Positions 15,599 through 36,867 of a stretch of DNA of 36,867 nucleotides are shown piece by piece. Origin of the DNA: Pyramidobacter sp. C12-8 (GTDB taxonomy: Bacteria > Synergistota > Synergistia > Synergistales > Dethiosulfovibrionaceae); assembly GCF_002007215.1 (NCBI RefSeq), contig NZ_MUHX01000027.1, forward strand, positions 1 to 36,867, given 5' to 3'. A program made the translations under genes and the position numbers. The notes under the pieces were generated by a model. It saw only the letters and a program-made list of their open reading frames with translations. It was not told the DNA's origin and ran no database searches. Each line of letters begins with the position of its first letter. Positions within the stretch are counted from its first letter, which is position 1.

Positions 15599-15625
15599 AA
15601 AAACCGTCCCGAAGATCTCAGCTTG
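15599..15625 (+). repeat. Left 27-bp direct repeat (half of a terminator)
   Basis: Twenty-seven bases, from AAAAACCGTCCC to CTCAGCTTG, are identical to 23254-23280. At the right-hand site they are the ascending arm and loop of a complete 23-bp hairpin; here the descending arm is missing and unrelated sequence follows. It lies 34 bases past the sirtuin stop codon. Confidence 0.9.
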
Positions 15626-15657
15626 TAGACTGTATCCCCCACAATGGAGACAATAAC

Positions 15658-15704
15658 AAAAAGCCCTCCTGTCGTAGAATAAAAAACTGCGTCAGGAGGG
15701 CTTT
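15658..15704 (-). terminator. Intrinsic terminator after the LysR gene
   Basis: A 12-bp stem (15660-15671 with 15693-15704, arm AAAGCCCTCCTG) is followed on the minus strand by a T run (15662-15658). The bases between 15705 and the LysR stop contain only a short unconvincing ORF. Confidence 0.8.
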
Positions 15705-15854
15705 CGTATAACAAAAACATACAAATGGAGAATACCCGGCAGAAAAAGTGTTTCGGCTCAAAGCCCGAGAATCATATGATGCGCTTGTGCCGCAATCACA
15801 TCACAGCTTGGCGTGATACGGGGAAATGTTTTTTGCATCGAAAAGCGAGCGAAC

Positions 15855-16793
15855 TCATGCCCGCGCGCGGCCGCCGAACTTCTCCAGACAGCATGCGCGG
15901 ATACAGTCCACCAGGAGCCGGGCCTGCGAGCTGAGAGGACGGCTTTTTTTGTAGGTAGCGACGACATCCCATTTCATTGGCTCGCTGTCGACGAAGAAGA
16001 AGCGCAGGTTCTCATCTTCGCAAGCTTCGGCGTAGCTCGTCGTGGCAAAGCCGACGCCCTGATTCTGACGCACGAAGTTCATCGCCGTGTGGATGTTGGG
16101 CGTGACAAGCCGTACGCCGGGCAGCACGCCGGCGTTTTCGAGGAAGGAGTAGAGCATTTCGTAAATGTTCTGGCTTTCCTGAAACACCACAAAAGGTTCG
16201 TTCTGGAACAGCGTGAACTGTTCCTCGCTGATGTGCGAAATACCTTTTTCGTCCGGCAGCGCGGCGAGAATGGGATTGCTGCGGCTGACGGCGAACACGG
16301 CAGCGTCGGTCATAAGGAATTCGTGCGTACAGGTGAAGCCTTGGTACTGGTTGGGCAGGTGCGTCAGCGCGAAATCGACGCGGTCGTGCTCGATCAGCGA
16401 AGCAAGGTGCTGGTGGGGCCCCTCCTCCAGACTGACGCGAATGTTGGGCCAAGCGCGCCAGAACACGCTCAGGATCTCCGGCAGCAGACTGGCCGAACGC
16501 CACGGCGTGAGGCCGACGCGAACTTCTCCGCGGTCGGGAGCCTTGAGGTTGGCAAAGCTGCGGCGCAGATTCTTGCCGCGCAGAATCTCTTCCCTGACGT
16601 AACTTCGATACAGTTCGCCGGCTTCAGTCAGCTTCAGTGGATAGGAAGAGCGGTCGAACAGCTCAATCCCCAGCTCATTTTCCAAGCGGCGCAGGTATTT
16701 GCTCAGCGACGGCTGCGAGATGTACAGTTTTTCCGCCGCGCGGGAGATGTTTCCCGTTTCGGCGATCGCCAGAAAATAATCGTAATTGTTCAT
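15855..16793 (-). CDS. LysR-family transcriptional regulator
   Basis: A 312-aa LysR-type regulator. The N-terminal winged helix (residues 1-60) reads FLAIAETGNISRAAEKLYISQPSLSKYLRRLE, a strong family match; the rest is the two-lobed effector-binding domain (about 90-300). The start is ATG 16793 with GGAGG eight bases upstream. It is divergent from the aldolase/TRAP operon across a 343-base AT-rich gap, the classic arrangement for an activator responding to the operon's substrate. Ends in a basic tail (GGRARA) and its own terminator. Confidence 0.92.
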   Translation of the reverse strand: MNNYDYFLAIAETGNISRAAEKLYISQPSLSKYLRRLENELGIELFDRSSYPLKLTEAGELYRSYVREEILRGKNLRRSFANLKAPDRGEVRVGLTPWRSASLLPEILSVFWRAWPNIRVSLEEGPHQHLASLIEHDRVDFALTHLPNQYQGFTCTHEFLMTDAAVFAVSRSNPILAALPDEKGISHISEEQFTLFQNEPFVVFQESQNIYEMLYSFLENAGVLPGVRLVTPNIHTAMNFVRQNQGVGFATTSYAEACEDENLRFFFVDSEPMKWDVVATYKKSRPLSSQARLLVDCIRACCLEKFGGRARA

Positions 16794-17136
16794 ATTTGTC
16801 GCCTCCGCATAAGTATTCCGAAATAGGCATGACTATTATATAACAAGATGAATTAGACAAACGTTTGAATTTCTTATATGATAGCCTCGTCGACAATAAA
16901 TATTACTAACTAAATAGCCGCTACGATTGTTGACATAGCTCCTTTTGAACGCCGATACAAAGGCGCGGGCGCGTCAGGCGGAAGGTTTTTCGTAGTCCAA
17001 AATTATAACCCGTAATGAATAAATTTGGTTAAATTGAGTTTTCGAAAATCAACGCTTTAGTGTGACAAATTTTCTTCGAGCGTTTCCGCGGCAGGAAGTC
17101 GCGATGTTTCAAAATTTTTTCTCTGAGGTGGTTTAC
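16794..17136. promoter_or_regulatory. Divergent control region of LysR gene and catabolic operon
   Basis: 343 bases without a gene, clearly AT-rich relative to its surroundings. On the plus strand TTGACA (16930-16935) is followed after 18 bases by GATACA, a weak promoter. A near-perfect dyad TTGAGTTTTCGAAAATCAA lies at 17034-17052 (one mismatched pair) and is a candidate operator. The assignments are tentative; nothing else is recognisable. Confidence 0.4.
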
Positions 17137-17817
17137 ATGGCTAACATTGGCTGCAAAATCGTGATGAACTTTCCCCGTCCTCCCAAAGAATTGGTCGAGA
17201 AGTTCCGCGGCCTACCCGTGGCAAACATCGACGACTGCATGAACCGCACGGCGGCCGTGCGTCCCGAGATCTGCCCGTTGAACAGCGTGCCTCTGTTGGG
17301 CGTGGCTTTCACCGTCAAGGTTGCCGAAGGCGACAATCTGATGTTCCACAAGGCCATGGATCTGGCGCAGCCGGGCGACGTTATCGTTATTGACGCCGGC
17401 GGCGACGTCAGCCGTTCCATCTTCGGCGAGATCATGGCGCAGTACTGCAAGACGCGCGGCGTTGCCGGCCTGATGGTCGACGGCAGTGTGCGCGACCGCG
17501 ACGAGCTGGCTGCCATGGACATGCCCATCTACGCCCGCGGCGCAACGCCGAACGGTCCCTACAAGAACGGCCCCGGCGAGATCGGCACGACGATCTCCTT
17601 TGGCGGTATCGTCGTCCGTCCCGGCGACATCGTGATCGGCGACGGCGACGGCGCGCTCTTCATCCACCCCGAAGAAGCCGAGGAGCTGGCCGCTAAGGCT
17701 CGCGCCACGTCGGAAAAAGAGGCTGTGTGGATCGAGAACATCAAGAAGACAGGCAAATTCGACCGTCCCTGGGTCGACGTCAAGTTGAAGGAAATCGGCT
17801 GCGAGATTGTCGAGTAG
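17137..17817 (+). CDS. RraA-like / 4-hydroxy-4-methyl-2-oxoglutarate (HMG/CHA) aldolase-family protein
   Basis: A 226-aa protein of the RraA-like fold. Members include class II pyruvate aldolases (ProA/LigK/GalC type) that split 4-hydroxy-2-oxo-dicarboxylates into pyruvate plus an oxo acid, and also regulators without catalysis. The active-site region is present: GGDVSRSIFGEIMAQYCKTRG then GLMVDGSVRDRDEL, with Arg119-Asp120 at the position of the catalytic Arg-Asp pair and Gly98-Glu99 upstream. Length equals that of the 227-aa ProA type. The start is ATG 17137 with GAGGTG. It heads the operon with the TRAP transporter and two dehydrogenases, which favours a catabolic aldolase over an RNase E regulator. 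Confidence 0.85.
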   Translation: MANIGCKIVMNFPRPPKELVEKFRGLPVANIDDCMNRTAAVRPEICPLNSVPLLGVAFTVKVAEGDNLMFHKAMDLAQPGDVIVIDAGGDVSRSIFGEIMAQYCKTRGVAGLMVDGSVRDRDELAAMDMPIYARGATPNGPYKNGPGEIGTTISFGGIVVRPGDIVIGDGDGALFIHPEEAEELAAKARATSEKEAVWIENIKKTGKFDRPWVDVKLKEIGCEIVE

Positions 17818-17876
17818 TTTTTTCTGCTCCGACAGCAACGCAGCACTTTAATCTATAGAAAAGAGGGTATTTGAAA

Positions 17877-18902
17877 ATGATGAACTTCCGCAGATCGTTC
17901 CTTTCCGCCGTCTGTCTGGCCCTGTTCGTTTCCGCCGCATGGGGCGCCGATCCGGTCGTACTTCGCATGAACACGAACATCAGCGAAAACGACTTGAAAA
18001 ACAGCTCCTTCGGTCTGGGCATCACGACGCTCGTCGAGCAATGCGACAAACTCAGCAACGGACGCCTCAAGGTCGAGGTATTCCCCCACAGCCAGCTGGG
18101 CAAGACGCCTTCCGAAGTGGTCGGCGGCGCTCAAATGGGGTCGTTCGAGATGTTCAACCTTGTGGCCGGCAGCTGGGGCGAGTACACCAACGCGTTCCTG
18201 CCCGTGAACACGCCCTACCTGTTCACCGACGAAAAGGTCCTTCAGGAGTTCCTCTACGGCCCCGAAGGCCAGAAGATCAAAGACAAGGTTCTGGCCGATA
18301 CCGATACCCGCGTCGTTTTCTACGGCTGGCTGGGCTTCCGCAACATCATCAACAATGTTCGCCCGATCACGAAGCCCGAGGATCTCAAAGGGCTGAAGAT
18401 GCGCGTGCTCTCCGATCGTTACACGATCAAGACGTTCGAGACCTTCGGCGCGCCTACTATTCAGGTTTCTTACAGCGAGCTGTACACCGCTTCGCAGCAG
18501 GGGCTGATCGACGGTTCCGACGGACCTTTCGTGAACATCTACAACTCCAAGCTGTACGAGGTCCAGAAGTATCTGTCCGAGACGCGCAACGCCTACACGC
18601 TGGCGGTCATGTGCATCGCGGAGGAAGCTTATCAGGGGCTGCCCGAAGATCTGCGCGATGCGTTCGACAAGGCCTGCGCTGCCGCTCAGAAGGTGGCCGA
18701 GGACAACCAGAAATTCGAGGACGCCTGCTTGAGCGAGCTGAAAAAAGTGATGACCTTCAACCAGCTCACTCCCGAGCAGATGAAGGCGTTTGAGGATGCC
18801 GCTCAGCCCGTGCGCGACATGGTCCGCCAAGAAATGGGCGACGAAGCCTGGAACGCGATCGTCAAAGAGATCGAGACCATCAAGGCCCGCCTCGGCAAAT
18901 AG
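17877..18902 (+). CDS. TRAP transporter solute-binding subunit (DctP family)
   Basis: A 341-aa periplasmic binding protein. A signal peptide (RRSFLSAVCLALFVSAAWGA) ends at about residue 24. DctP features: FPHSQLGKTPSEVVGGAQMG, WLGFRNIINNVRPITKPEDLKGLKMRV (the Arg of KMRV is the usual carboxylate clamp), SYSELYTASQQGLIDGSDGP. The conserved Arg suggests an organic acid ligand. ATG 17877 is chosen over the TTG at 17871 because GAGGG at 17863-17867 is then correctly spaced. The gene is followed by a terminator-like hairpin before dctQ, which would make this subunit more abundant than the membrane parts. Confidence 0.95.
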   Translation: MMNFRRSFLSAVCLALFVSAAWGADPVVLRMNTNISENDLKNSSFGLGITTLVEQCDKLSNGRLKVEVFPHSQLGKTPSEVVGGAQMGSFEMFNLVAGSWGEYTNAFLPVNTPYLFTDEKVLQEFLYGPEGQKIKDKVLADTDTRVVFYGWLGFRNIINNVRPITKPEDLKGLKMRVLSDRYTIKTFETFGAPTIQVSYSELYTASQQGLIDGSDGPFVNIYNSKLYEVQKYLSETRNAYTLAVMCIAEEAYQGLPEDLRDAFDKACAAAQKVAEDNQKFEDACLSELKKVMTFNQLTPEQMKAFEDAAQPVRDMVRQEMGDEAWNAIVKEIETIKARLGK

Positions 18903-18919
18903 TTTGCCACAGCTTCCTG

Positions 18920-18957
18920 CAAGCGGCCGCACATCTTTCGCGCGGCCGCTTGTTTTT
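18920..18957 (+). terminator. Intra-operon terminator/attenuator between dctP and dctQ
   Basis: An 11-bp perfect stem (CAAGCGGCCGC 18920-18930 with GCGGCCGCTTG 18942-18952) is followed by five Ts. It lies 18 bases past the dctP stop and 58 bases before the dctQ start; partial readthrough would feed the downstream genes. Confidence 0.8.
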
Positions 18958-19014
18958 GAAAAACAGTTTTGTGATACGGCTTACAATGTTTTGCAGTTAA
19001 AGGAGGCGCTTCTC

Positions 19015-19575
19015 TTGAAAAAAAGCGTTCTGAGATTCCTGAACGAATTCGAAGTCTATATCGGTGCCACGCTCTTCGCAGCGATGACAATCCTGCTGAC
19101 GCTGCAGGTGATCACGCGTTATCTGTTCAACTATTCGTTCAGCTGGACGGAAGAGCTGTGCACCGTCTTCTTCATCTGGCTGTCGTACCTGGGCGCCTGC
19201 GGCGGCGTGTTGAAGGGCAAGCATCTGCGTATTGACGGCTTCCTCAACAGCCTACACGGCAAGGCGAAAAAGGCCTTACTGATCTTCACCGATCTGGTGA
19301 CGATGGGCTTCTGCCTCTACATGATCCCACCGCTGATGAAGATCATCGCCAACTTCGCGAGGCGCAACAGCGCTACGATCCTGCTGCGTATGCCCAAATC
19401 GGTGATCTATGCTGTGCTGCCGTTCTGCTTCGCGTTGATGACGCTGCGCCTGATCCAGGATTGCTGGCGCATCGCCACGTCGAGCGACGACGACGTGAAA
19501 GTGACAACCAGCCGCTCCATCTTCGACGCGAATCTTGACGAGGAAACCGCTGAAAACGACGGAGGAGGCAAATAA
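19015..19575 (+). CDS. TRAP transporter small membrane subunit (DctQ family)
   Basis: A 186-aa integral membrane protein with four hydrophobic segments. The family motif SWTEELCTVFFIWLSYLGA (about 43-61) and the following GKHLRIDGF are typical DctQ. The start is TTG at 19015, eight bases after a perfect AGGAGG; no ATG is available in the right place. Only 2 bases separate its stop from the DctM start. It partners DctP and DctM to form a sodium-coupled organic acid importer. Confidence 0.92.
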   Translation: MKKSVLRFLNEFEVYIGATLFAAMTILLTLQVITRYLFNYSFSWTEELCTVFFIWLSYLGACGGVLKGKHLRIDGFLNSLHGKAKKALLIFTDLVTMGFCLYMIPPLMKIIANFARRNSATILLRMPKSVIYAVLPFCFALMTLRLIQDCWRIATSSDDDVKVTTSRSIFDANLDEETAENDGGGK

Positions 19576-19577
19576 CC

Positions 19578-20873
19578 ATGGAGAACAGCGTTGCCATCCT
19601 TTTCGGAGTGATGTTCGCGCTCCTTTTTCTCGGCGTGCCCATCGGCGTTTCCATCGCCTGCGCGATGCTGGCGCTGATCCGCTTCGCGCCGATCACCAAG
19701 CTGACGTTTATCGCTCAGTCCCTTTACTCGGGGCTGGACAACTTCACGCTGCTGTCGCTACCCTTCTTCATGATCGCCGGCACGATCATGGAAGGCGGCG
19801 GGATCTCGCGCCGCATCGTCAAGGCGGCCAACTCGGCGATCGGTAACGTCACCGGCAGCCTCGGTATGGTATCGATCATCGCCTGCATGTTCTTTGGCGC
19901 AGTTTCCGGTTCGGCGATCGCCACAGTAGCGGCGATCGGCTCAATCATGCTGCCCGCAATGGCTCAGGAAGGCTATAACCGCACCTACGCGACGGCGCTG
20001 ATCGCCGTGGCCGGCAGTCTTGGCATGATCGTGCCGCCAAGCACGCCGATGGTCGTGTACGGTGTCACCAACAACGTCTCGATCGGCGCTCTGTTCATGG
20101 GCGGTTTTCTGCCCGCGATGGTCGTCGGCGGTCTGCTGATGACGGTGAACTACTTCACCTGCAGGAAATACGGCTGGGTGGGCAAGAATCACCGCCTCAG
20201 CGGCAAGGAAATAGCTAAGACTTTTTGGGACGCCAAATGGGCTCTTTTGATGCCGGTAATCATCCTCGGCGGCATCTATTCCGGCGTTGTCACGCCGACG
20301 GAAGCCTCCGTTGTCGGCTGCTCCTACGGGATCATCGTCGGCCGTTTCATTTACAGGGAGCTGACGTGGCGCAACATCTGGGAGATGTACAAGAAGAACA
20401 CCAGCTTCATCGGCGCGATGCTGTTCACGTTCGCCCCCGCCGGCGCGCTGAGCTCGATTTTCGCTTATATGAAGATCCCTGCCAGGATCACGGCGTTCTT
20501 CATCTCGATTTCGTCCAACCCTTACGTGATCCTGTTCATGATCCTGATCCTGCTGCTCATCGTCGGCATGTTCCTGGAAACGACTCCTTCGATGCTGCTG
20601 ATTTCGCCCATTTTACTGGCAGTCGTCCAGGAGATCGGCGTCAATCCCGTGCACTTCGGCATCTTCATGGTACTGGCGCTCTGCGTCGGCCTGGTGACGC
20701 CGCCGGTGGCCATGGACCTGTTCGTCGCTCAGTCGATGACGGGCATCGACATGATCTCTATCGCGCGCAAAGGCAAATGGTTCATTCTCTCGATGATCGC
20801 CGCGACGCTGATCATTCTCTATGTGCCCTGGATCAGTCTGGTACTGCCGAAATTCTTCGGCATGATTCGTTAA
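19578..20873 (+). CDS. TRAP transporter large permease subunit (DctM family)
   Basis: A 431-aa multi-pass permease, the usual length for DctM. Family segments: LFLGVPIGVSIACAMLALI, SLPFFMIAGTIMEGGGISRRIV, FFGAVSGSAIATVAAIGSIMLPAM (the substrate/sodium path), GSLGMIVPPSTPMVVYG and a C-terminal half ending TPPVAMDLFVAQSMTGI. About 12-13 membrane helices are expected. The start is ATG right after the DctQ stop, with GGAGGAGG. The three subunits form a complete secondary transporter. Confidence 0.96.
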   Translation: MENSVAILFGVMFALLFLGVPIGVSIACAMLALIRFAPITKLTFIAQSLYSGLDNFTLLSLPFFMIAGTIMEGGGISRRIVKAANSAIGNVTGSLGMVSIIACMFFGAVSGSAIATVAAIGSIMLPAMAQEGYNRTYATALIAVAGSLGMIVPPSTPMVVYGVTNNVSIGALFMGGFLPAMVVGGLLMTVNYFTCRKYGWVGKNHRLSGKEIAKTFWDAKWALLMPVIILGGIYSGVVTPTEASVVGCSYGIIVGRFIYRELTWRNIWEMYKKNTSFIGAMLFTFAPAGALSSIFAYMKIPARITAFFISISSNPYVILFMILILLLIVGMFLETTPSMLLISPILLAVVQEIGVNPVHFGIFMVLALCVGLVTPPVAMDLFVAQSMTGIDMISIARKGKWFILSMIAATLIILYVPWISLVLPKFFGMIR

Positions 20874-20900
20874 AATTTACAAGGGAAGAGGTCTTTTCAC

Positions 20901-21809
20901 ATGGCTCAGAATGTTTCTCTCGGTTATATCGGTTTCGGCGAAGCCGCCTATCACATGGCCAAAGGGCTGTGCGACGAGGGGCTGACGGGAATTCTCGCCT
21001 ACGACGTGGCGATGGGCTCGGACGGTCCTTACAAGAAAACGGTGCTCGACCGCGTCGCCAGCGCCGGCAGCGTGACGGCCGCCGCTTCCGCAAAGGAACT
21101 TGTCGAGAAGTGCGACTTCGTCGTCATCGCCGTGCCCGCGCGCTTTACCCCCTCCACGGCCGATGGCCTGCTGCCGATGGCCCGCAAAGGACAGTACTTC
21201 ATCGACGTGACCACGGCTCTGCCCGACATCAAGACGGCCGAGGCAAAGAAGTTTGCCGAAAAAGGCGCGCTTTACGTGGATTCTGCGATGCTCGGCGGCC
21301 TCGTCGGCTACGGTCACAAGGTCCCCATCCTCGCTTCCGGCGAAGGCTCGGACGCTTGGCACGACTCGATGACGCCCTGGGGCATGAACATCACGCTTGT
21401 CGGCGAAGGTTCCAAAGCCGGCGACGCTTCGCGCATCAAGCTGGTGCGCAGTGTCTTCACCAAGGGACTGGAAGCGCTGCTGACGGAGGCGCTTGCGTTC
21501 GCTCATAAGTGCGGCCTTGAAGACCGTTTCATGCAGTCGATCTGCGCCACGATGGCCAAGCAGCCGTTTGAAAAGCTCGTCGTCGCCCTGGCCGGATCGG
21601 ACTTTGTTCATTCCGAGCGCCGCGGCTTTGAAGTGGGTGAAGCGATGGAACTGATGGGGCAGGTCGGCGTCAAACCGCTCGTTTCCGCCGGCGCCAAGGC
21701 GCGCATGGAGCACACCACCAGCTTCGGCTGCGCCAAGGAGCTGAACGGCGCGGCGCCCCAGTCGCTCGCCGAGATCTTCGCGCTGATGGACCGCAAAAAC
21801 TACAACTAG
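20901..21809 (+). CDS. NAD(P)-dependent dehydrogenase, 6PGDH/3-hydroxyisobutyrate-like with DUF1932 C-terminus
   Basis: A 302-aa short beta-hydroxyacid-dehydrogenase-like enzyme. The Rossmann start is GYIGFGEAAYHMAKGL (about 8-23); DFVVIAVPARFTP follows, and the C-terminal helical domain has HSERRGFEVGEAMELM, characteristic of DUF1932 proteins. The middle GGLVGYGHKVPILASGEG corresponds to the catalytic-loop area. It would oxidise a hydroxy acid or reduce an oxo acid with NAD(P). The start is ATG 20901 after GGAAGAGG, 27 bases past dctM, so the operon continues. Its substrate is unknown. Confidence 0.87.
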   Translation: MAQNVSLGYIGFGEAAYHMAKGLCDEGLTGILAYDVAMGSDGPYKKTVLDRVASAGSVTAAASAKELVEKCDFVVIAVPARFTPSTADGLLPMARKGQYFIDVTTALPDIKTAEAKKFAEKGALYVDSAMLGGLVGYGHKVPILASGEGSDAWHDSMTPWGMNITLVGEGSKAGDASRIKLVRSVFTKGLEALLTEALAFAHKCGLEDRFMQSICATMAKQPFEKLVVALAGSDFVHSERRGFEVGEAMELMGQVGVKPLVSAGAKARMEHTTSFGCAKELNGAAPQSLAEIFALMDRKNYN

Positions 21810-21820
21810 GCCCATAGGAC

Positions 21821-21853
21821 ACAAGGCGCTCCGGCCAAGCCGGAGCGCCTTGT
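21821..21853 (+). promoter_or_regulatory. Perfect hairpin between the two dehydrogenase genes
   Basis: A 15-bp perfect stem (21821-21835 with 21839-21853) with a 3-nt loop lies 11 bases past the stop and 28 before the next start. No T run follows, so it is more likely a transcript-stabilising or processing hairpin than a terminator. Confidence 0.6.
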
Positions 21854-21881
21854 CGCACAGATAAAAGCAGGAGGAATAAAG

Positions 21882-22961
21882 ATGTCCGCAGTGTATGCAT
21901 ACAACGATCTGCTGCTGAAAACAAAAAAAATCCTGCGCAGTTTCGGCTATTCAGAGGAAGAAGCCTCGTTGACCGCCCGCGTTCTCGTCGAGGCCGACGC
22001 GCGCGGCGTGCCCTCGCATGGCGTGGGACGGCTGAGTCCGTACCGTCAGTTTCTGGACAACGGCTTTATCCATCCCGGGCGCGCGCCGGAGATTACTTTC
22101 GAGACCCCCGTCTCACTCGTCGTCGACGGGCACAACGGCGTCGGCGGACTGATCGCCGATTTCGCCGTGACGCGCCTGATCGAAAAAGCCCGTCGGACCG
22201 GCGCGGCTTTCTGCGCCGTGCGCAATGCCAGCCACTACGGCATGGCCGGTCTCTGGACCGAACGCATCGCCCGGGCCGGAATGATCGGTTGCTCCTGCTG
22301 CACGACGCGGTGCAACGCCATCCCTACCAACGGCCGTACCCGCATGTTCGGCACCAACCCCATTTCCGTCTCCATCCCCGAAGAGAATGGAAACATGTTC
22401 CTGCTCGACATGGCGACGACGACCGCCGCCTTCGGCAAAATCGAAGTGTACGCCCGCCGCGGCAAGATTCTGCCCGAGGGCTGGGCCGTCGACAGCAGGG
22501 GGCAGAGTCAGCGCGATCCTGTCAAGTTCCTGCGCGCCTACAAAGCCGAACCCGGACTTGGCGGACTCGTCTTCCTCGGAGGCACGCAGGAGGCCACCGG
22601 CGGACACAAAGGCTACGGCCTCGGACTGCTTGTCGAGCTGCTTTCCGCCGGGCTGTCGATGGGCGCATGGAGCCTGCATTCGTATGAAAAAGGCGTCGGC
22701 GCAAAAGTCGCCATGTTCTTTTCGGCCGTTCGCCTCGACATCTTCGGCGATCCCACCGCCCTGCGCGCCCACATCGGCGAAATCCTCCGCGAAGTACGGA
22801 ACGGCGAGACGGCCGAAGGTCGCGGCCGCGTCTGGATCCACGGCGAAAAGGAGCGCGAAGCCCGCGAGCGGGCCCTGCACGATGGCGTGGTGATAGACGA
22901 CGTTTCCGCTGCCAGTCTAGAAGAATTCCTCGCTCAGGCGGAAGGAAAACAACCGAATTGA
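21882..22961 (+). CDS. Ldh_2 family NAD(P)-dependent malate/L-lactate/ureidoglycolate-type dehydrogenase
   Basis: A 359-aa oxidoreductase of the family that includes L-sulfolactate, malate and 2,3-diketogulonate dehydrogenases, whose NAD site is not a Rossmann fold. Signature pieces: ARVLVEADARGVPSHGVGRL (catalytic His in SHG, about residue 46), VDGHNGVGG, VRNASHYGMAG (second conserved His), MFGTNPISVSIP, LDMATTTAAFGKIE and GGHKGYGLGLLVELLS. It would reversibly oxidise a 2-hydroxy acid to a 2-oxo acid. ATG 21882 follows GGAGG. It is the last gene of the TRAP operon, close to the transposase remnant. Confidence 0.93.
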   Translation: MSAVYAYNDLLLKTKKILRSFGYSEEEASLTARVLVEADARGVPSHGVGRLSPYRQFLDNGFIHPGRAPEITFETPVSLVVDGHNGVGGLIADFAVTRLIEKARRTGAAFCAVRNASHYGMAGLWTERIARAGMIGCSCCTTRCNAIPTNGRTRMFGTNPISVSIPEENGNMFLLDMATTTAAFGKIEVYARRGKILPEGWAVDSRGQSQRDPVKFLRAYKAEPGLGGLVFLGGTQEATGGHKGYGLGLLVELLSAGLSMGAWSLHSYEKGVGAKVAMFFSAVRLDIFGDPTALRAHIGEILREVRNGETAEGRGRVWIHGEKEREARERALHDGVVIDDVSAASLEEFLAQAEGKQPN

Positions 22962-23052
22962 TCCATAGAAGAGTCTGTCTCAAAAACCTAAAGAAGGAGG
23001 AAAAGTCGGACTCTTTCGATTCGTATTGTGCTCAATGAGGCATGAGAAAGGA

Positions 23053-23246
23053 TTTCATTTCCGTCGTCGCCCCCTCGTCCTGGACAAGCTCTCCAGCCGT
23101 TGCCAAGAGATCGGCTGCCCCGCGTACCATCCGCAGATGGTGCTCACGACGATTCATGCTATTTCTTGACTGAGACACCAGGCAGCAAGAGTGCCTCGAG
23201 GAAAATCCACAAAGCGCGCAGCAACGGATTTCAAGTCCTTCGATAA
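23053..23246 (+). pseudogene. Decayed N-terminal fragment of an IS1182-like (DUF772) transposase
   Basis: One frame reads LVLDKLSSRC...GCPAYHPQMVLTTIHAIS then a stop (23167-23169); another frame continues SASRKIHKARSNGFQVLR and stops at 23244-23246. Together these match the order of the IS1182/DUF772 N-terminus (a YHPRM-type motif, then SSRKI and F-x-x-L). Both the missing upstream part and the frameshift show it is dead. It stops eight bases before the right 27-bp repeat. Bases 22962-23052 contain no recognised feature apart from GAGTCTGTCTC, possibly an IS end. Confidence 0.6.
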
Positions 23247-23252
23247 AAAATA

Positions 23253-23305
23253 AAAAAACCGTCCCGAAGATCTCAGCTTGCGTGAGATCTTCGGGACGGT
23301 TTTTT
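23253..23305 (-). terminator. Long terminator hairpin containing the right direct repeat
   Basis: A perfect 23-bp stem (23253-23275 with 23283-23305) with a 7-nt loop; A6 at one base and T6 at the other make it functional in both directions. It starts 5 bases beyond the stop of the minus-strand DUF2156 gene. Its left arm and loop are the 27-bp repeat also found at 15599-15625. Confidence 0.93.
23254..23280 (+). repeat. Right 27-bp direct repeat
   Basis: Identical, base for base, to 15599-15625, distance 7,655 bases. Here it is followed by the complementary arm, so this copy is the intact terminator. Confidence 0.9.
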
Positions 23306-32500: not shown

Positions 32501-35500
32501 TTATCTCCGTTTCGAGCCGTTCTGCAGCATCCGTTCCAGCGCCGCCATGCGCGCCTTCAGTTCGACGATCTCCTGACTCTGGAGCGCGTTGGTTTCCTCA
32601 TGCCGGGAGTTCGTACGTCTCAGCGAGGCCACCTCGGCCTGCAGCTCGGCGTTCTCCTTCTGCATCACGTAGACGCTGTTGAGCGGCCCCTTGCGATAGC
32701 GCTCGGGGATCGCTTCCCTGTCTTCCTTGCGGCCGATCTTCCACGTCAGCCCGGCGTTCGCCATCGACTCGCCGTGGTGAGTGATGGACACCCCTGCATG
32801 AACCATGAAGTCTTCCTTCATGTAATGTGCCCAGCCGAGCGCGAACGCCCATTCGCCCTTGTACGCTCCGAAGCCCGCCATGAGCTGGCTCGGCTCGATT
32901 GGGTCGTACTGCATCGGTTTGAGCGCGCTCAAGGCCGAGCCGAGCGCGCCGGTGGCCTTGATGCTGCCTCTCAGTTCGCCCATCTGGTTGTAGACGTTGC
33001 CGAAGTTGTTGTAGACGTTGGTGAACTGTTTGTCCACAGCGCTCAGAGCATCGCCGACGTTGTTGTAGCTGCCGCCCTGCATTCGGTATGTCGGCTGGGA
33101 GACGCTGCCGTCGTTCTGGACGGTAATGCCGTATTTCTCGCCGCCGAGGTGCTGGGCGATGCTGCTCGAGGTCTTCCACAGCTGCGCTCCGTTGATGGCG
33201 TCGCCGCTGGTCTGGTTCACTGCTCCGGCTTTGACGTTCTCGATCTTGTGGCCGGTGGCGTCGAAGCCTTTGGCGGTGACTTTGCCGGCAAAATTCGGCG
33301 CGTCGACGACGGAGATCTTGATGGCGCCGCTGTCGTCGCTCAGTTTGATGTTGCTGCCTTTCTTGAAGTTGAGGACGTTGTCGGTCTTGCTGACGGTCTT
33401 CACTTTCACTCCGTCGATCTGGGCGTCCCAGCTTTTCAGGGTGTCGGCGGAGATGGCGGCGATCTTGTCGTCCACGGCTTTGAGCTGGTCTTCGGTGGCG
33501 GCCTGGCCGGAGGTGATGCTCAGGGGGTTCCAGGTTGTGTTGCTCAGGCCGTTGACGGTGCCTTTGTCGTCCTTGTTGATGGTGAGTTTGTTTGTCGTCC
33601 CGGTCACGTCGAATTTCAGTTCGTTCTTGAGGGCGACGACGACTTTGCCGCCGTCGACTTTGGTCTCGGTGTTCGTGCCGTCGCCGGCGACGTGGAGGGC
33701 CTGGCCAAGTTTCTTGGTGACGATTCCGCTATCGTCGGCCGAGAGGGCAAAGCCTTTGTCGGTCAGATTGGAACTGGCGTTTTCGATCGCGTTTTTCAGG
33801 TCGCCGATGTTGGCTGCGTTCTTTAGCGTAGCGCCGCTGGCGGTGGAGAGGTCTGCGCCGTCCAAACCGCTTTTCACGTTGGCGATCTGCAGGCCGTTCA
33901 TGTTCACGCTGGTCTTGGTGATCGAGGGGCCGCCGTTGATGGAAAGTCCTCCGTTGTTCAAGGTGACGTCGCCGATGGAGACGCTGCCGGCTGCCGTCAG
34001 GTTGAGGTTCCGCGCCAGTTTCACTTTCAGTGCGCCGCTGGCGGAATCGGCGATTACGCCGATATTGTCGTCCGTAAGTTTCGAGACGTCCGCTCCGCCG
34101 CTGATTTTCAGCGTCTCTCCGAGTTTTCTGCCGACGGGGGTCCCGCCGTCGCCGGCGAATTTCAGGCCGTCGTCCATCGTCGCCACTTGGTGATCGCCCT
34201 TTTCATCCGTGTAGTAGATGCGGGTCATCTCGGTGGCGCTCAGGTTCTTCGCCGGATCGAGGCTGGCAGGGCCGGCATTGATGCCGATGTCGGCTTTGGC
34301 GTTCTCGCCGTCGGAGCCCTTCGGGCCGGTCAGGCCGATCTTGCCTTCCGTTCCGTCCGCGCCGTCTTTGGCATAAATGGTCACTCCGTCTTTGCCGTCT
34401 TTGCCCTTGACGCTGATCCCGTCCTTGCCGTGAATTACGACGGATTGGCCGTCTTTGCCGTTGATGCCGATGGAACCGTCTTTACCGTCGGCTCCTGCCT
34501 TGCCCAGTACGAGATCGTCTTTGACGTTGACCTTGTACGGCTTGGCAGCCGTGCCTTCGCCTTCGACTGTCGTATTATGGCCGTCTTTCAGGATCGTCTT
34601 GCTGTTGGCGATCTGTGCTGTCAGCTGGCCGTAGTTGACGGCATCGGTGTCGGACGTGCCTTGGGCGACGCCGTGGATCTGCAGGCCACCCATGTTCACG
34701 TCTGTCTTGGTGAGCTTGGGGCCGCCGGTAATCGTCAGACCGCTGCCGTTAAGCAGAGTGTCGCCGATGGTCAGGCTGCCGGCTGCCGTCAGGTTGAGGT
34801 TCTGCGCCAGCTGAACTTTCAGCTGGCCGCCGACGTTGTTCACGCCGATGTTGCCGTCGGTCAGCGCGCCGGAGGCTCCGCCGATGATGTCGAGCGTGTT
34901 GTTCAGTTTCTTCTTGATGACTTTGCTCGCGTCGCTCTGGCCGTTGTCGCCGGCGTACTTCATGCCGTCGTCCATCGTCGCAACTTGGTGATCGCCCTTT
35001 TCATCCGTGTAGTAGATGCGGGTCATCTCGGTGGCGCTCAGGTTCTTCGCCGGATCGAGGCTGGCAGGGCCGGCATTGATGCCGATGTCGGCTTTGGCGT
35101 TCTCGCCGTCGGAGCCCTTCGGGCCGGTCAGGCCGATCTTGCCTTCCGTTCCGTCCGCGCCGTCTTTGGCATAAATGGTCACTCCGTCTTTGCCGTCTTT
35201 GCCCTTGACGCTGATCCCGTCCTTGCCGTGAATTACGACGGATTGGCCGTCTTTGCCGTTGATGCCGATGGAACCGTCTTTACCGTCGGCTCCTGCCTTG
35301 CCCAGTACGAGATCGTCTTTGACGTTGACCTTGTACGGCTTGGCAGCCGTGCCTTCGCCTTCGACTGTCGTATTATGGCCGTCTTTCAGGATCGTCTTGC
35401 TGTTGGCGATCTGCGCTGTCAGCTGGCCGTAGTTGACGGCGTCCTTGGTCGAGGTGCCGGCTTCCACGTTGGTGATCTTCTGATTGTTGGCGTTCAGGCC

Positions 35501-36867
35501 GGCGGTGGTGATGTAATCCTTGCCGCCAATGCTGATTTTGCCTTCGCTCAGAACGACTTTGTTCGTCGAGCCGACGGTCACTTCCGTGAATTCGGGTTTC
35601 TCGCTCATGACGAGGTCGAGTCCGTCACCGGCGGCGTTCTTCTTCACGCCGAGGTTCTTGCCGGACGCGTTCGCGCTCACGTCGGACAATCCGCCCTTGA
35701 CGCTCAGAGTTTGCCCAAGCTCGCGCTTGACTGCAACTCCGTCGTTGCCGGCGAATTTCAGCCCCTTGTCCAATGTCTCGTTGATGGTGGTGATGCTGGT
35801 GTTATTGCTGATGTTGATGGTCTCGCCCAACTTCGGGTCGGCTTTCACGGTCACAGTCGCTCCGTCGGCGGCCTTGGCGACTTCGACGGCGATCTTGTCC
35901 GGCTCGCCTTTGAACTGGATGTTCTGTTTGTCCGTTTCGCCAAGTTTGATTTCGGGTTTGACGCTGCCGTCCCCGTCGCTCACGGTGAAGCCGCCCTTGA
36001 GGTTGGTGATGTCGGTGGTGTGGTTGTTCACCGTGGTGGTCAGGTTGCTGATGTTGCTCGTGTTGGTCTTCACGACGTCGCTGACGACTTTCAGCTGGTC
36101 TTCGGTGGCGGCCTGGCCGTTCACGATCGTCGGGTTGTCGATATCCCAGGCGCGGTTCGTCAGTTCGTTGACTGTGCCTGCGCCCGCGATCTTGACTGTG
36201 CCCGCCTGGATGTCGCCGGTGGCGCCGTTGACGGTTACTTTGGTGCCGACTGTGAGTTTGCCGGCGGTTCCGTCGATGGAGATTTTCTTGGCCGGATCAG
36301 TGCCGAGAGTTACGCTGTCTTTCAGGCTGACGGTGTATTCCTTGCCGCCCTGGGAGTTCGCGCCATCGGACACGCCGATGTTATCGCTGCCCTTGACCGT
36401 AGTCGGCTTCGCCCCCGCCGTGACCAGGGACTTCACCTGGTTGAGGTTGACCGCGTCCGTTCCTTCCGTGCCGGCCTTTACGTTCTTGATTTGCTGGCTG
36501 TTGGCGTTCAGACCGGCGGTGGTGATGTAATCCTTGCCGCCAATGCTGATTTTGCCTTCGCTCAGAACGACTTTGTTCGTCGAGCCGACGGTCACTTCCG
36601 TGAATTCGGGTTTCTCGCTCATGACGAGGTCGAGTCCGTCACCGGCGGCGTTCTTCTTCACGCCGAGGTTCTTGCCGGACGCGTTCGCGCTCACGTCGGA
36701 CAATCCGCCCTTGACGCTCAGAGTTTGCCCAAGCTCGCGCTTGACTGCAACTCCGTCGTTGCCGGCGAATTTCAGCCCCTTGTCCAATGTCTCGTTGATG
36801 GTGGTGATGCTGGTGTTGTTGGTGATGGTGCTGTTCAGCTTGGTTTCGTCCATGCTCAGGTGAAGGC
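32501..36867 (-). CDS. Trimeric autotransporter adhesin (YadA-like), 5' end outside the window
   Basis: A very large surface adhesin, at least 1,450 residues; the frame stays open to the window edge, so the N-terminus and signal peptide are missing. The visible part is a chain of stalk/head repeats ([17 protein letters not shown]-like units, [30 protein letters not shown] necks) with two collagen-like Gly-X-Y segments ([17 protein letters not shown]). Near 32726-32935 a YadA-type anchor is seen ([16 protein letters not shown], then [32 protein letters not shown]). Unusually it does not end there: about 74 more residues form a predicted coiled coil. Long near-identical duplications are inside. 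It would trimerise and bind host or partner cells. Confidence 0.93.
34185..34642 (-). repeat. Adhesin internal duplication 1, copy 1 (458 bp)
   Basis: Matches 34983-35440 with a single mismatch seen (34615 T versus 35413 C); period 798 bases. It encodes the collagen-like KDG segment and the following [13 protein letters not shown] unit. The near-identity implies a recent duplication or gene conversion. Confidence 0.85.
34983..35440 (-). repeat. Adhesin internal duplication 1, copy 2 (458 bp)
   Basis: Second copy of the 34185-34642 unit, in the same orientation, 798 bases further upstream in the gene. Confidence 0.85.
35487..35803 (-). repeat. Adhesin internal duplication 2, copy 1 (317 bp)
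   Basis: Matches 36501-36817 with one mismatch (35498 versus 36512); period 1,014 bases. It encodes the [16 protein letters not shown] to [14 protein letters not shown] block. Confidence 0.85.
36501..36817 (-). repeat. Adhesin internal duplication 2, copy 2 (317 bp)
   Basis: Second copy of the 35487-35803 unit, near the window edge. Confidence 0.85.

Follow-up and report, generated by a model that had tools for sequence, protein, structure and literature searches.

The aldolase of Pseudomonas putida (PDB 3NOJ), a member of the RraA-like fold family, converts 4-hydroxy-4-methyl-2-oxoglutarate (HMG) or 4-carboxy-4-hydroxy-2-oxoadipate (CHA) to pyruvate and also decarboxylates oxaloacetate, and replacement of its Arg123 by lysine lowers kcat 181-fold (PMC5065237). 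FlDet, an RraA-family dehydratase/decarboxylase of Flavobacterium described in an alginate setting, converts 2-keto-3-deoxy-D-glucarate, a 2-oxo sugar diacid, to alpha-ketoglutaric semialdehyde (PMC8563752). Since the family includes both an HMG/CHA aldolase with oxaloacetate decarboxylation and FlDet, membership by itself leaves the reaction of a new member unfixed. In this study, we analysed contig NZ_MUHX01000027.1 of Pyramidobacter sp. C12-8 (36,867 bp, the entire contig out of a 2.67-Mb genome; hereafter the window), in which genes for an RraA-like enzyme, a tripartite ATP-independent periplasmic (TRAP) transporter, a DUF1932 dehydrogenase and an Ldh_2 dehydrogenase follow a divergent LysR-family regulator gene. 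The operon is real and coherent, and is assembled from known family parts.

Our reading, drawn from sequence comparison and held with slightly better than even confidence, is that the operon forms a self-contained catabolic unit in which a 2-hydroxy acid, with a hydroxy dicarboxylate as the likeliest candidate, would be imported, oxidized and then cleaved by the RraA-like enzyme with release of pyruvate. From its family role, DctPQM would import the 2-hydroxy acid. Ldh_2 would oxidize the 2-hydroxy group to give a 2-oxo acid, perhaps with the DUF1932 protein acting on the other stereoisomer, and the RraA-like enzyme, a metal-dependent lyase as judged from its active site and family, would split the 2-oxo acid, pyruvate leaving. 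Should the substrate be 4-hydroxylated, the second product may be another oxo acid formed by retro-aldol cleavage, which we propose tentatively; should it be oxaloacetate-like, the second product would be CO2, which we regard as rather unlikely. Another possible role for the DUF1932 protein is reduction of the second product. The LysR regulator is likely to sense either the substrate or a pathway intermediate.

The regulator gene on the minus strand is followed by the genes for RraA, DctP, DctQ, DctM, DUF1932 and Ldh_2, every product scoring above its Pfam gathering threshold and DctP, DctQ and DctM together making up a complete TRAP set (Table 1). A sequence-only reading of the same DNA had named these genes, and all were recovered at the positions it gave, each over its Pfam cut-off; its span of 17137-22961 begins exactly at the start codon of RraA, finishes with the stop codon of Ldh_2 and does not include the LysR gene. 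The gaps between successive genes from RraA to Ldh_2 are 53, 112, 2, 27 and 72 bp on a single strand, a spacing compatible with one transcription unit. Most likely DctQ starts at the TTG at 19015, preceded by AAAGGAGG (read by eye); the family scans of DctQ used a longer reading, from 18865. A same-species genome retains 11.5 kb of the window region at 99.9% identity, and a second Pyramidobacter retains DctM-DUF1932-Ldh_2 at 97, 91 and 78% identity, on a short contig and with another downstream neighbour; the gene set is thus not a chance assembly. Scans of the seven proteins of the operon and regulator revealed neither a hydratase nor a ring-cleavage family, the other genes of the window being read by eye only, which bears out the same claim of the earlier reading. 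That reading had also set aside the classical gallate/protocatechuate route, and we likewise reject it for the window because the operon is without a hydratase and the CHA-aldolase cut-offs are missed.

The RraA-like protein belongs to the NF004850 (PRK06201.1) subfamily, scoring 264.8 bits against a curated cut-off of 231. It shares with the P. putida aldolase the fold family, the Arg-Asp pair and most of the metal- and phosphate-site residues: Arg119, Asp120, Asn67, His71, Arg37 and Lys143 correspond to Arg123, Asp124, Asn71, His75, Arg40 and Lys147 of 3NOJ, and Arg195 and Glu199 of 3NOJ are also kept as judged from the end of the alignment. The intact Arg-Asp site of the sequence-only reading is the Arg119-Asp120 pair, aligned with Arg123-Asp124 of 3NOJ. 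In an alignment of 97 rows, in which the window gene is present twice (as window and L165), Asp120 is conserved in 97, Arg119 in 95, Asn67 in 92 and His71 in 91. No relative of RraA was found in viral contigs.

The gene neighbourhoods of related enzymes support import of a 2-hydroxy acid, its conversion to a 2-oxo acid and cleavage by RraA. At an E-value below 1e-38, 22 RraA places were collected from 61 genomes, and their gene contexts were called with a codon-position criterion. An aminotransferase, D-2-hydroxyacid dehydrogenase, Ldh_2 or DUF1932 gene lies within 4.5 kb at 15 of these 22 Synergistota places and a recognized carboxylate-carrier gene is present at 17; DUF1932 itself occurs within 4.5 kb at eight, against 0.02 expected from gene density. 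Besides the window, the host genome carries three RraA operons of the same subfamily, each with a different carboxylate importer (Table 1). In a tree of 94 RraA rows, the window gene falls in a six-row group (support 100/100) that also contains the aminotransferase-linked RraAs and a Veillonellaceae pair in which LysR/RraA is joined to DUF1932. The association of one aldolase clade with a 2-amino-acid module as well as with a 2-hydroxy-acid module is the strongest argument for the scheme. The aminotransferase-RraA-SDF symporter operon (L144:1759-4934; also L151 and L153), which contains the RraA most closely related to the window gene among the paralogues of the same genome, is a candidate pathway for an amino acid resembling glutamate or aspartate. 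Amidohydrolase-like DUF6282 proteins are encoded repeatedly near RraA or DUF1932 (L032:3606-4571, L038, L043, L138, L151).

The association of RraA with DUF1932 extends to Synergistota, Bacillota and Pseudomonadota. One scan of named genomes gave 321 DUF1932 loci, of which 80, many from close relatives, were kept; 77 had a usable focal open reading frame (ORF), the choice of ORF giving priority to blast matches, and the three dropped loci (L065, L078 and L112) each have an RraA. RraA lies within 5 kb of DUF1932 at 58 of the 77 and within 400 bp at 44, and Ldh_2 within 5 kb at 19. Carriers and regulators differ among the loci, TctABC, CitMHS and DctA/GltP-type carriers being recurrent. The Bacillaceae, Paenibacillaceae and Synergistota pairs resemble the window in having both enzymes and a carboxylate importer, but mostly use tripartite tricarboxylate transporter (TTT), CitMHS or single-protein carriers and RpiR regulators. 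RraA-DUF1932 is found on annotated plasmids of Priestia and Rhizobium, and a plasmid of Pseudomonas syringae carries RraA together with an NAD(P)-binding protein that the DUF1932 query detected. Plasmid p1 of Azospirillum sp. TSA2s carries, in order, LysR/RraA, Ldh, an iron-containing alcohol dehydrogenase, an aldehyde dehydrogenase, DctPQM, glycerate kinase and D-2-hydroxyacid dehydrogenase, the RraA and Ldh genes overlapping by 4 bp with the TRAP genes after them. It shares with the window a divergent LysR, an RraA that is 49% identical, Ldh_2 and DctPQM, but has the additional alcohol and aldehyde dehydrogenases and glycerate kinase and no annotated DUF1932; its record names no pathway. In the open-licence literature searched, no published function or pathway was found for the RraA-DUF1932 combination, and a search for 4-hydroxy-4-methylglutamate returned only unrelated papers. 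In a Sporomusaceae metagenome-assembled genome (L112:10777-13063), RraA is followed by two hydro-lyase subunits of the fumarase/tartrate-dehydratase type, with a DUF1932 match adjoining. PIG-L proteins adjoin RraA in Paenibacillus and a spirochaete (L097, L138 and L143); these RraAs sit in a distant part of the tree and are therefore uninformative on the window gene.

The sequence-only reading had proposed import of a branched hydroxy dicarboxylate, oxidation to the 2-oxo form and cleavage to pyruvate. The passage from hydroxy acid through 2-oxo acid to pyruvate is upheld by the comparative context (15 of 22 places, and Azospirillum); no test pointed to a branched dicarboxylate, and the ligand-bearing structures nearest to DctP bound hydroxy acids and sugar acids. 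DctP is an orphan, its top matches in 60 other genomes being only about 33-36% identical. Its best structure match is 4P47, in an open form, and its second best is 7BBR, bound to 2-keto-3-deoxy-D-gluconate. Both arginines that bind the carboxylate in the pocket of the 4P47 group, Arg152 and Arg173, and its aromatic lid residue 196 are retained as Arg157, Arg178 and Tyr201. The ligands of this TRAP-binder group mostly co-purified with the proteins, as the authors warn (PMC11668362).

The DUF1932 protein scores 32.6 bits against a PF09130 gathering score of 25 and falls far short of the models for 3-hydroxyisobutyrate and tartronate semialdehyde dehydrogenases (TIGR01692, 43.4 against 291.6; TIGR01505, 49.4 against 340.75). 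Its AlphaFold model is confident (mean predicted local distance difference test score 94.6), and the top Foldseek matches are 3qsg, 4ezb and 1i36, which have no assigned function, and then 3cky, the 2-(hydroxymethyl)glutarate dehydrogenase of nicotinate fermentation. The last is the nearest functionally named structure by both sequence profile and fold, although only about 21% identical. The superfamily motif KxxN, a catalytic lysine followed by an asparagine, is visible in the 3cky alignment; Lys180 aligns with the lysine of 3cky, but the asparagine three residues on is replaced by Arg183. Lys180, Arg183, Ser184, Lys188 and Gly189 are unchanged across 12 relatives. The protein thus appears to be a dehydrogenase that is competent for catalysis but has a changed substrate site, KxxR in place of KxxN implying that substrate binding differs. 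No assigned reaction for any DUF1932 protein was found in the open-licence papers searched, the mentions there being unrelated by title and the start of the abstract.

Several observations weigh against the proposed pathway. The RraA-like protein lies below the curated LigK and CHA-aldolase cut-offs (139.3 against 179 and 119.9 against 304.5 bits) and deviates from 3NOJ at two active-site positions, Asp102 being Glu98 and Thr145 being Pro141. Glutamate occupies the Glu98 column in 81 of the 97 rows and aspartate in nine; in the absence of phosphate, the T145A substitution in the P. putida aldolase reduces kcat from 15.6 to 0.89 s-1 (PMC5065237). DctP has Gly218 where 4P47 has Asn213 and so lacks the full residue set of the 4P47 group; among 18 other DctP-type rows, nine are readable at the Asn213 motif and seven of these have asparagine. 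In addition, at seven of the 22 RraA places no gene of the four 2-oxo-acid-making kinds lies within 4.5 kb, although at one of the seven the contig ends after 251 bp, and the context families behind these counts were picked once the loci had been seen, with orthologues that repeat and are not independent.

The substrate might instead be malate-like, a C4 or substituted C4 hydroxy dicarboxylate that Ldh_2 would convert to a (substituted) oxaloacetate and RraA, as a soluble decarboxylase, to pyruvate and CO2; the aminotransferases and citrate lyase encoded beside other RraAs would then serve the same end from aspartate or citrate. Decarboxylation of oxaloacetate by the HMG/CHA aldolase (PMC5065237) favours this route. 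So do the name malate dehydrogenase carried by 1v9n, the structure nearest to Ldh_2 (339.5 bits against a PF02615 gathering score of 38.8), and the recurrence of the carriers listed above; in a different genome of this order, cluster L041 combines DUF1932 and RraA with citrate lyase alpha (557 against a cut-off of 501) and a CitE-like protein, the latter under its own cut-off (291 against 443). We nevertheless think it unlikely: two OAD_beta genes and one PYC_OADA gene are already present in the genome, and an accessory operon with an orphan DctP suggests a substrate rarer than malate. Ldh_2 is by name most like L-sulfolactate dehydrogenase, yet it reaches 188 of the 500 bits of NF040650 and the Pfam scan found no sulfo-lyase family in the operon; a sulfolactate pathway was rejected.

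Two further routes appear less probable still. Ldh_2 could oxidize C2 of a 3-deoxy aldonate or aldarate, with RraA splitting the resulting 2-keto-3-deoxy acid into pyruvate plus an aldehyde, or dehydrating and decarboxylating it like FlDet, and with DUF1932 reducing the aldehyde or semialdehyde. The substrate of FlDet (PMC8563752), the ligand in 7BBR and the aldehyde dehydrogenase and glycerate kinase of the Azospirillum relative speak for such a route. Improbable as we consider it, it must contend with an operon in which Pfam finds no kinase, aldehyde dehydrogenase or sugar-acid dehydratase, and with a DctP without the asparagine of sugar-acid binders, the acidic residue also being missing in an alignment with a gap nearby; moreover, the authors of the FlDet study count just 20% identity between FlDet and the P. 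putida aldolase (PMC8563752). We give the lowest probability to a 3-hydroxy acid that DUF1932 would turn into a 3-oxo acid for decarboxylation by RraA, leaving Ldh_2 for a side product. Placement of DUF1932 in the beta-hydroxyacid dehydrogenase superfamily, with Lys180 aligned to the 3cky lysine, agrees with it, as do some Bacillus clusters consisting only of RpiR, RraA, DUF1932 and a DctM-like carrier, whereas the KxxR motif argues for different substrate binding and the aminotransferase and D-2-hydroxyacid dehydrogenase partners of RraA indicate 2-oxo acids.

The regulator and operon lie on a 7.6-kb insert bounded by direct repeats within a terminator, which is a new observation. The perfect 27-bp repeat corresponds to one terminator arm plus part of the loop, and in two sister species (G001 and G003) the terminator is uninterrupted. 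The convergent genes flanking the insert are presumably Sir2-like and DUF2156-like. The GC content is 57.5% in the insert and 62.6% elsewhere in the window, and a remnant of an insertion sequence (IS) near the right end resembles an IS in G001 contig C4 (74% over 91 bp; 18 of 19 bp); no intact transposase was seen within the insert. Gain of the insert by transfer fits these features. Beside the insertion site, the DUF2156-like gene is in two frames in a same-species genome (L189; G061:C1:1568515-1569398), possibly through a sequencing error or a frameshift. Elsewhere in the window, a 1454-residue frame at 32501-36865 that reaches the contig end has, by eye, the look of a surface adhesin or autotransporter.

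Table 1. Features of the window and RraA operons on other contigs of the same genome. Percentages are identities to the window proteins.
Feature	Position	Strand	Remarks
Accessory insert with regulator and operon, 7.6 kb	15599-23253		27-bp direct repeat at both ends; flanking genes separated by about 100 bp in G001 and G003
Direct repeat, left copy (part of the stem and loop of the terminator)	15599-15625
LysR-family regulator, divergent	15855-16793	-	PF00126 (HTH) and PF03466 (substrate domain)
RraA-like pyruvate-forming lyase (predicted), NF004850/PRK06201 subfamily	17137-17817	+	PF03737, 158 bits
DctP, TRAP solute-binding protein	17871-18902	+	PF03480, 207 bits; pocket mapping
DctQ, TRAP small permease	19015-19575	+	PF04290, 103 bits; TTG start
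DctM, TRAP large permease	19578-20873	+	PF06808, 339 bits; TIGR00786 above cut-off
DUF1932 dehydrogenase (beta-hydroxyacid dehydrogenase superfamily)	20901-21809	+	NAD_binding_2, 44 bits; PF09130, 32.6 bits
Ldh_2 (malate/L-lactate type) dehydrogenase	21882-22961	+	PF02615, 339.5 bits; nearest PDB chain 1v9n
Remnant of a decayed IS (inverted-repeat-like end, fragment of a transposase)	22967-23144	+	IS in G001 contig C4
Direct repeat, right copy	23254-23280
Bidirectional terminator containing the insertion site	23256-23302		20-pair stem
Aminotransferase-RraA (67%)-SDF symporter	Contig C71		Also in G001 and G003
LysR/RraA (50%)-D-2-hydroxyacid dehydrogenase-TTT	Contig C104		Also in G001 and G003
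DUF1932 (61%)-TTT-RraA (46%)-CitMHS-DUF6282	Contig C100

Annotations frequently label RraA-like genes as CHA aldolases or as regulators of ribonuclease. The RraA-DUF1932 pair recurs, and together with the four RraA operons with different upstream enzymes in one genome it offers direct test cases for both families. We suggest, tentatively and with somewhat less than even confidence, that RraA of the window subfamily is a portable pyruvate-forming core that is combined with varied makers of 2-oxo acids (aminotransferase, D-2-hydroxyacid dehydrogenase, Ldh_2, DUF1932) and varied importers (SDF, TTT, CitMHS, TRAP) to give numerous short pathways for acids with a 2-hydroxy or 2-amino group. On this view, DUF1932 proteins would form a class of dehydrogenases specialized for such reactions, and the 7.6-kb insert of the window would carry a mobile form of the module. 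If this is true, many unassigned carboxylate-uptake clusters of gut and soil bacteria would follow a common logic, in which a 2-oxo acid is made and pyruvate is released.

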